This document shows positions 8,929 to 58,256 of a DNA stretch of 64,000 nucleotides, piece after piece. The stretch comes from Planctomycetota bacterium (GTDB taxonomy: Bacteria; Planctomycetota; Phycisphaerae; Phycisphaerales; UBA1924). The stretch spans positions 62,001 to 126,000 of the forward strand of contig JACTNA010000032.1 of the NCBI GenBank assembly GCA_014584315.1, written 5' to 3'. The translations under genes and the position numbers were made by a program. How positions within the stretch are numbered: the first letter of the stretch is position 1; every line of letters starts with the position of its first letter. Under the pieces are notes generated by a model, which was not told where the DNA came from, ran no database searches, and saw nothing but the letters and a program-made list of their open reading frames with translations.

Positions 8929-9038
8929 ACGCACGGGGCGCGGCCCCGAGTGCCTGGTGCCCGGTGCCCAGTGCCTCGTCAAGCCGCTGAGACGCACCCG
9001 TTGAACCTGATCCGGTTCGCACCGGCGGAGGGAATGCG
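8929..9038 (+). ncRNA. TPP riboswitch (THI element) controlling thiC
   Basis: The conserved TPP-aptamer segments occur in order: CACGGGGCGC, then CTGAGA (8988-8993), then CCGTTGAACCTGAT, and finally GGCGGAGGGAATGCG. CGCA at the 5' side can pair with TGCG at the 3' end as helix P1. The P3 arm closes with CGGC/GCCG and is capped by four heptamer repeats. The thiC ATG (9039) directly follows P1, and GGAGGGA, the only Shine-Dalgarno-like sequence, is itself part of the conserved aptamer core. Thiamine pyrophosphate binding would thus directly bury the ribosome-binding site, indicating translational control with no separate expression platform. Confidence 0.93.
8950..8977 (+). repeat. Heptamer tandem array in riboswitch P3 loop (GTGCCYN x4)
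   Basis: GTGCCTG, GTGCCCG, GTGCCCA and GTGCCTC follow each other without gaps. The array fills the variable P3 loop of the TPP aptamer, leaving the conserved core intact. It is the reverse complement in type of the array at 10837-10864 in the 3' part of thiC. Confidence 0.75.
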
Positions 9039-11006
<1,968 letters not shown>

Positions 11007-22211: not shown

Positions 22212-22246
22212 ATTTGCTATTTGCTATTTGCTATTTGCCATTTGTC
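22212..22246. repeat. Heptamer tandem array (ATTTGCT x3 + ATTTGCC + ATTTGTC) at the end of the SMR gene
   Basis: Five contiguous heptamers, 35 bp, much more AT-rich than the surroundings. The last codons of the SMR gene and its TAG stop (22231-22233) are read from this array, so it defines the C-terminus of that protein. Confidence 0.85.
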
Positions 22247-56597: not shown

Positions 56598-56603
56598 GCC
56601 GTA

Positions 56604-56631
56604 CTCACGCGGAGGCGCAGAGCACGCGGAG
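56604..56631 (-). repeat. Dispersed 28-bp repeat, copy D (inverted)
   Basis: CTCACGCGGAGGCGC...; it matches the reverse complement of the copy at 56756-56783 at 26 of 28 bases. Confidence 0.75.
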
Positions 56632-56645
56632 GGAGCGATCCGGTA

Positions 56646-56676: not shown

Positions 56677-56755
56677 ATCCTCCGCGCAACTCGGGGCGCA
56701 GCATCGCACTCGGGGCGGGGCCTATCAGGGCCCGTCTCCAACCCATCGTCTTCTT

Positions 56756-56783
56756 CTCTGCGTGCTCCGCGCCTCCGCGTGAG
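56756..56783 (+). repeat. Dispersed 28-bp repeat, copy E
   Basis: CTCTGCGTGCTCCGCGCC...CGTGAG; it differs from copy A at 1042-1069 by one base. Confidence 0.8.
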
Positions 56784-56789
56784 CCATGC

Positions 56790-58256
56790 TCAGGGCTTCG
56801 CGCTCACCGTCAACGCGGCGTCGGCGTTCGCCGTCGGCTTGCGCTCCACGTGCAGCCGCTTGGTCCGGTGCCGCGACCAGTCGGTCACGCGCAGGTCCGG
56901 GCTGTCCGGCCCGTCGTGCACGCGCAGCACGTCGTACACGTTGTCCCGCTGCGCCGGCACGAAGCCCGCCCCGCGGATGAGCCGGCACAGCAGCGCTTCG
57001 TCCAGGCAGTACGTCGTCCCCGCGGCGGAGACCACGTTCTCCTCCATCATCACGCTGCCCATGTCGTTCGCGCCGTAGAGCAGGGCGACCTGCCCCACGT
57101 GCGGCCCCATCGTCACCCACGACGCGCCGATGGAGTAGATGTTGTCGAGGAAGAGCCGGCTGAGCGCCTGCGTCCGCAGGTAGTCCGTCGAGCCGCTCAT
57201 GCGCACGCGCCGCCCGAACTCGGCGTGCGCCTTCGGGTCGCCTGTCCCGTCCAGCCGCGCCACCGCATCGCCCGGGAACTCGCCCGAGTCCTCCGCCCGG
57301 CTCAGCCAGTCCTTCACACGCCCCAGCGGCGTGTTCTCGCGCTGAAACGGCCACGAGATGAACGAGACGTAGTGCCCGAACGGGACCGAGGGGTCGAGGG
57401 ACCGAGGGTTCGAGGCGGTCGGGCCGCGGGCCTTGATCCCTTGATCCCCTGGTCCCTCGCTCCCTTCGAGCAACGCTCGGTCCTGCCATTCGCGCACCAG
57501 GCGCATGTGGTGGACGCGGTCCGCGTACCCCTCGATGTGCCCGAACATCATCGTCGCGCTCGTGAACATGCCGAGCGTGTGCGCGACGTACATCGTGGTC
57601 AGCCACGCCTCCGCGTCGCACTTGCCCAGTCCGATCTTGCGGCGCACGGCCGGGGCGAAGATCTCGCCGCCCCCGCCGGGGATCGAGTCCAGCCCCGCGT
57701 CGCGCAGCCGCACCATCACCCACCGCAGTTTGTCCTCCAACGTCGAGCCGGGCGGGTCGAAGAAGTGCACGAACTCGATGAACTCGGGCGGGCTGAAGGC
57801 GTGCACGTGAACGCCCGGGAAGCGGTCCTTGATCGAGCGCAGCAGCCGAACGTACCACTCCAGCGGCAACGCGGGGTTCATCCCCCCCTGCATCAGCACC
57901 TGCGTCCCGCCGATGGCGACCAGTTCGCCGATCTTCTCCAGGACCTGCGAGGGCTCCAGCGTGTACGCGTCGTCCTCGTCGCCGTCGCGCCGGAACGCGC
58001 AGAAGGTGCACCGCGCGTTGCACACGTTCGTGTAGTTCACGTTCCGGTCGATCACGTACGTCCGGATCGCGCCGCCGTGCACGGCCCGGCACCGCGCGTC
58101 CGCCCAGCGGCCCAGCGCGGTCAGCGGCATCGTGCGGAACAGGTCGAACGCCTGCTCGGGCGTCAGCCGGGCCTCCCCCCGCACCACGGCCGCCAGCAAC
58201 CCCGGATCGGCGGCGGGCAGGTGCGGATGCTCGATCGGCGGGGCGTAGAGGGGCAT
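56790..58256 (-). CDS. mqnC: Cyclic dehypoxanthinyl futalosine synthase (menaquinone, futalosine route)
   Basis: This 488-residue radical-SAM enzyme of menaquinone biosynthesis closes dehypoxanthine futalosine to its cyclic form. The radical-SAM ligands are Cys79, Cys83 and Cys86 in NYTNVCNARCTFCAFRR. Other family landmarks are TLEPSQVLEKIGELVAIGGTQVLMQGGMNPALPLEWYV, HVHAFSPPEFIEFVHFF, LRDAGLDSIPGGGGEIF, TSATMMFGHIEGYADRVHHM, FISWPFQRENTPL and NIYSIGASWVTMGPHVGQVALLYGANDMGSVMMEENVVSAAG. MqnC is usually near 370-400 residues; about 28 extra residues before the FISWPFQ motif are encoded by two period-8 repeat arrays (57381-57415 and 57433-57470). The start was placed at ATG 58256. It converges with the TPR gene. 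Confidence 0.93.
   Translation of the reverse strand: MPLYAPPIEHPHLPAADPGLLAAVVRGEARLTPEQAFDLFRTMPLTALGRWADARCRAVHGGAIRTYVIDRNVNYTNVCNARCTFCAFRRDGDEDDAYTLEPSQVLEKIGELVAIGGTQVLMQGGMNPALPLEWYVRLLRSIKDRFPGVHVHAFSPPEFIEFVHFFDPPGSTLEDKLRWVMVRLRDAGLDSIPGGGGEIFAPAVRRKIGLGKCDAEAWLTTMYVAHTLGMFTSATMMFGHIEGYADRVHHMRLVREWQDRALLEGSEGPGDQGIKARGPTASNPRSLDPSVPFGHYVSFISWPFQRENTPLGRVKDWLSRAEDSGEFPGDAVARLDGTGDPKAHAEFGRRVRMSGSTDYLRTQALSRLFLDNIYSIGASWVTMGPHVGQVALLYGANDMGSVMMEENVVSAAGTTYCLDEALLCRLIRGAGFVPAQRDNVYDVLRVHDGPDSPDLRVTDWSRHRTKRLHVERKPTANADAALTVSAKP
57381..57415. repeat. Period-8 tandem array inside mqnC, arm 1
   Basis: On the minus strand it reads CTCGAACC CTCGGTCC CTCGACCC CTCGGTCC CG. It is translated in frame and is inverted relative to arm 2, so the two arms could fold back on each other. 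Confidence 0.7.
57433..57470. repeat. Period-8 tandem array inside mqnC, arm 2
   Basis: On the plus strand it reads TTGATCCC TTGATCCC CTGGTCCC TCGCTCCC TTCGAG. Together with arm 1 it encodes the Gly/Pro/Ser-rich insertion of MqnC between WQDRAL and the FISWPFQ motif. Confidence 0.75.

Follow-up and report, generated by a model that had tools for sequence, protein, structure and literature searches.

The reading frame of the menaquinone-synthesis gene mqnC in this planctomycete genome contains two arrays of 8-nt units lying in opposite orientation, which raises the question of where such a segment came from and how the encoded enzyme accommodates it. The window (the whole stretch of DNA analysed, 64,000 nt) contains the following relevant features:

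56790..58256, minus strand: mqnC, encoding cyclic dehypoxanthinyl futalosine synthase (488 aa; Radical_SAM domain at residues 73-254, CofH_C at residues 355-445).
57382..57416, plus strand: G-rich octamer arm, reading GGGACCGA GGGGTCGA GGGACCGA GGGTTCGA and then GGC.
57417..57430, no strand: spacer (hairpin loop) between the mqnC arms, about 14 nt.
57431..57466, plus strand: C-rich octamer arm, reading CCTTGATC CCTTGATC CCCTGGTC CCTCGCTC and then CCTT.
57382..57466, minus strand: in-frame insertion of about 29 codons (approximately residues 264-292), defined by comparison with congener G002 (locus L041), which is without it, and congener G001 (locus L040), which has a diverged copy.
9376..9420, plus strand: period-7 array (CTCAGGA) in frame within thiC (8991-11003, plus strand), encoding 17 residues.

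TIGR03699 is the best of all models for the mqnC product (E 8.7e-115), at 383 bits below the curated cut-off of 428 and with its match falling into two stretches, and models related to it break at residue 260. The insertion sits in a variable loop between WQDRAL and HYVSFISWPF. On the coding strand, the arm at 57382-57416 is C-rich and encodes ASNPRSLDPSVP, and the arm at 57431-57466 encodes EGSEGPGDQGIK. TRF assigns the arrays a period of 8 (4.2 and 4.5 copies) as well as a period of 16 (2.1 copies, 94%). The two arms are degenerate, inverted to each other, and 74% complementary over 35 nt. Re-examination bore out the sequence and position of the opposed arrays reported in a preliminary description of this DNA; the two inverted arms stand, but the spacing, put there at about 20 bp, measures about 14 nt. 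By sequence, the solved structure closest to the protein is that of MqnE (6xi9). The MqnC loop presumably lies at the protein surface and would be functionally neutral.

The mqnC array has the top period-8 score of the 64-kb window (22/27), which was reached by one of 200 dinucleotide shuffles, and the paired-arm score at mqnC is 41 against a best of 36 among 200 dinucleotide shuffles of the window. The partial pairing and folding previously suggested for the arms are supported, RNA of both strands folding better than shuffles. For the mRNA strand of the segment the folding energy is -52.5 kcal/mol (z -3.10), equalled or bettered by 2 of 200 shuffles, and for the plus strand it is -61.2 kcal/mol (z -4.45), equalled by none of 200; folded as DNA, the segment gives a z of -2.24. 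Scanning the segment against Rfam 15 returned only hairpin-like matches, far under the gathering threshold.

The mqnC arrays are one copy of an octamer family, here called F1, with the unit GGGATCRA/TYGATCCC in many variants and a layout of G-rich array, spacer, and inverted array. A BLAST search of the mqnC segment against its own genome gave 16 matches, with E values down to 4e-8 once the match to itself is set aside. The unit pattern gave 73 matches at about 20 separate sites, against 19 for a reversed-pattern control, some of the matches at three mismatches being due to chance; a stricter F1 pattern gave 60 matches in this genome and 0 in the control. The figure of about 20 sites is approximate, since the catalogue was compiled from BLAST searches, pattern searches, and chosen stretches of the genome. 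In-frame copies are found in mqnC, mqnE, uvrB, dnaE, and carB, with the mqnE copy occupying the loop that corresponds to the mqnC loop. The remainder are mostly intergenic, adjoining for example groES-, serA-, and secA-like genes (named by eye from translations), and some copies contain pure unit runs such as (TTGATCCC)8. When the G-rich arm of mqnC is compared with that beside groES, 31 of 34 positions are identical in register and 17-24 when shifted. This shared order of variant units suggests that the elements were probably copied as wholes. Within the order, 16 of the 121 genomes have F1-like arrays, as genome-specific variants; with at most one mismatch allowed, and this genome set apart, such arrays occur in two of a phylum-wide sample of 293 genomes.

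Other repeats also lie nearby. Downstream of mqnC, the intergenic DNA contains inverted arms of another unit type at 56600-56633 and 56748-56786, about 115 bp apart, reading CGCGGAGGCGCAGAG... and CTCTGCGTGCTCCGCGCCTCCGCGTGAG with a GTGGCATAGGCGTCCCGCCTGTGCCAC palindrome between them. A heptamer array, (ATTTGCT)4.7, occupies positions 22212-22244 of the window.

The relatives of the host, itself represented by a draft genome, place it in the Phycisphaerales (Planctomycetota). Comparison with relatives, whose genomes are draft assemblies and mostly MAGs, indicates that the loop varies in both length and content. The interval FGHIEG...FISWPF spans 67 residues here, 67 in G001, 46 in G002, and 35 in distant Phycisphaerae, in agreement with the earlier reading of the segment as an in-frame, repeat-derived insertion. 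In mqnC the F1 element is present in G001 as a diverged copy and absent from G002. The mqnC flanks are 91-92% identical among the three congeners, against 72% (67/93) for the loop between this genome and G001. A homologous, non-repetitive segment of equal length was sought within the class Phycisphaerae and none was found. In other members of the order or class the mqnC loop instead contains other arrays, namely (GAGCGACG)n, (CACTCCGT)n, (CTCGACAC)n, and a full hairpin of AGCGACGA units. Single-arm arrays also occur there (L042, L047), so a hairpin is not needed for occupation of the loop. Among the complete reading frames of 104 mqnC genes, 10 of 11 period-7 or period-8 arrays fall in the loop, which makes up 7% of the length. 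On an mqnC tree built without the loop (106 rows, the G001 row L040 being left out), array presence changes state at least eight times. The loop of one further mqnC gene (L106, from SRR2107171_bin.49) has three tandem 33-nt units (LGTPTLRGGSA) beside a period-8 array.

Since eight is not a multiple of three, all three frames of a pure octamer array give the same cyclic 8-residue peptide, three octamers making eight codons; GGGATCAA, for example, yields GIKGSRDQ. With a frame-independent peptide the reading phase hardly matters, and only total length and stops do. Arrays of TTGATCCC have TGA in one of the three phases. Of the 12 units in the C-rich arms that code in mqnC, uvrB, and mqnE, none is of the TTGA type; in mqnC and mqnE the opposite arms, in which TTGA does no harm, retain several CTTGATC units. 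The sample is small, and this bias is the pattern expected from stop avoidance in a translated segment. Because the C-rich arms are free of the stop-prone units that the opposite arms keep, the coding copies of F1 are probably translated. The mqnC orthologue matches in relatives likewise have no internal stops.

The same behaviour extends to other core enzymes, with unrelated octamer or heptamer arrays present at the matching mqnC, uvrB, carB, and thiC loops in other Phycisphaerales. Of the three congeners, one carries F1 in uvrB and the other two carry differing hairpins of the GTGGCAAAG type, while carB hairpins in three other genera are built from GGCACCAA, AGTTCCGA, and AGTACCGC units. The thiC gene had already been singled out as a second cofactor gene with a repeat insertion, and the in-frame CTCAGGA array confirms this; in genome G018, an octamer hairpin occupies the loop in which the window's thiC has its heptamer array. 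In complete reading frames, the studied loop, picked in each gene because this genome has an array there, contains 3/3 of the arrays in uvrB, 3/3 in mqnE, 1/6 in dnaE, and 4/11 in carB, the further dnaE and carB arrays falling elsewhere in those genes.

Several additional sites were observed in these genes. In carB of several genera, octamer arrays occur beyond the studied loop (L254 at nt 2372 and 3170; L268; L253; L263), and in three genomes extra carB arrays lie near nt 2350-2660 of the frame. The thiC loops of other genera (L301, L305) contain stretches, PSPLGRGQGEG and SPALSQGERG among them, which resemble translated copies of other dispersed repeats.

We therefore consider it likely that the mqnC segment is a copy of the dispersed, octamer-phased hairpin repeat F1, similar to REPs and Rickettsia palindromic elements (RPEs) and tolerated in a permissive loop. 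F1 copies would spread by some copying process, and genic copies would survive only where they preserve the frame, are free of stops, and fall in a flexible loop. In MqnC, such a loop would be provided by the stretch that follows the radical-SAM domain and precedes the next conserved segment, and the copy there would act as a linker rich in Gly, Pro, and Ser that takes no part in catalysis. After insertion the segment may drift fast, congeners sharing 72% identity in it and about 91% in its flanks, and its stem may decay. Two differences between congeners are signs of mobility: the hairpin beside groES is not in G001, where 21 bp stand at that position instead, and the mqnC copy is not in G002. 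In the one comparison of an occupied with an empty site, that beside groES, no clean insertion with target duplication was seen; a MITE would have such a duplication together with terminal inverted repeats and be related to an insertion sequence.

Strong hairpins could also reflect selection on structure, with the hairpin serving as a regulatory or nucleoid-binding element (mRNA pausing or stability, or paired IHF/HU-type sites) and the peptide arising as a by-product. Coding copies of several species and families do fold far better than shuffles. RNA-fold z values are -6.1 for mqnC of G001, -7.9 for mqnC of L128, -7.1 for uvrB of G002, and -7.45 and -6.1 for two carB copies in other species, so that coding copies folded with both arms and compared with shuffles range from -3.1 to -7.9. 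The mqnE copy with both arms reaches -90.6 kcal/mol, a raw energy with no shuffle comparison, and with one arm missing gives a z of +1.9. Sites for global regulators have moreover been proposed for the paired octanucleotide repeats of Geobacter (PMC2700814). Nevertheless, the sites vary between congeners, families replace one another, some loop arrays are one-armed (L042, L047), and the mqnC stem is just 74% complementary, the window's copy being a more decayed member of the family. We accordingly regard selection for the structure itself as unlikely. Still less probable is a purely local origin, in which microsatellite slippage acquired an inverted neighbour by chance. The units are short and tandem, and other copies contain pure runs such as that of eight units mentioned above, but around 20 sites share the same units, a common unit order, and two inverted arms, and 200 shuffles of the window produced no such arm pair.

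Movement of F1 as a REP-like element by a REP-associated tyrosine transposase (TnpA-REP/RAYT) would supply a mechanism, and the genome does encode four Y1_Tnp genes; REP hairpins inside uvr and dnaE genes have also been reported (PMC3733652). All four Y1_Tnp genes are, however, flanked by other palindromic repeats with no F1 array, and F1 is octamer-periodic, unlike a single short palindrome, which makes this route improbable, though less so than slippage. Nor does F1 qualify as a GTAG/CGTC REP, a tagged palindrome of 20-40 bp linked to TnpA-REP, since its arms are untagged octamer arrays and none lies by a Y1_Tnp gene. The least credible possibility, which we would scarcely entertain, is that the insert is excised or skipped (as an intron, in an intein-like manner, or by ribosomal bypassing of the hairpin), leaving a protein without it. 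Hairpin insertions in coding sequence do resemble bypassed elements, which occur in some organelles, yet the inserts preserve the frame and are stop-free, and the lack of TTGA units in the coding C-rich arms (0/12) speaks for translation.

Some of these Y1_Tnp genes have repeats of their own. At L276, the Y1_Tnp gene contains an internal stop and has (AAGCCCC)n upstream and a (CCCTTTGG)n octamer array downstream (1262-1350, 2133-2208), and the ATTTGCT unit found in the window recurs near it. The Y1_Tnp genes of L273 and L274 lie amid long palindromic repeats with TTGTAGCCACGGGTGG or TCGTAGCCGGGGGTGG, resembling GTAG-type REP clusters of this genome.

Among known systems, the dispersed hairpin F1 is nearest in behaviour to RPEs and intragenic REPs. 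RPEs are short, dispersed hairpin repeats found both between genes and in frame within unrelated protein genes, and the proteins presumably tolerate intragenic palindromic insertions where these fall in a loop or linker. F1 likewise has dispersed copies, some intergenic and some in frame. Intragenic insertions of GTAG/CGTC REPs have been surveyed, including those in uvr and dnaE genes (PMC3733652), and F1 hits the same kinds of gene. Unlike RPEs and REPs, F1 forms its hairpin from arrayed, degenerate 8-nt units; many unrelated units share this one design, and from genus to genus different families occupy the same enzyme loops. The nearest system in architecture is that of Geobacter metallireducens, in which tandem octanucleotides (class 1 consensus GTTGCTYN) are paired on opposite strands at variable distance and a heptanucleotide family lies within genes, the repeats being interpreted as sites for regulators or as regulatory elements in RNA (PMC2700814). 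F1 shares with these the tandem octamers in two inverted sets, a likeness of architecture alone: unit sequence and phylum differ, and the Geobacter repeats are described as putative regulator sites, not as enzyme-loop insertions. Inverted repeats embedded in protein-coding genes are also described for the mitochondria of Nematomorpha, where, according to the abstract, they are perfect and long, with octamer units not among the features that the abstract mentions (PMC6649704). A search of the open-access literature found no reports of such repeats in planctomycetes. What looks new, as a variant and not as a kind, is that octamer units, inverted arms, numerous unrelated unit families, and reused enzyme loops occur together.

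A wider proposal, possible but offered tentatively, is that Phycisphaerales have a process by which hairpins built from exchangeable 7- or 8-nt units are written repeatedly into preferred sites that include the UvrB, CarB, MqnC, MqnE, and ThiC loops. The architecture would then be what propagates, with unit sequences drifting into a dialect particular to each genome.

For the biology of these bacteria, the F1 copy in mqnC means that a short DNA repeat scattered through the genome can add tens of residues to core enzymes, and such additions recur in the same loops across genera. The recurring insertions amount to experiments replicated in nature that show where a loop can accept extra residues, and they offer a tractable case for asking how hairpin repeats that have no dedicated enzyme become dispersed in bacterial chromosomes.
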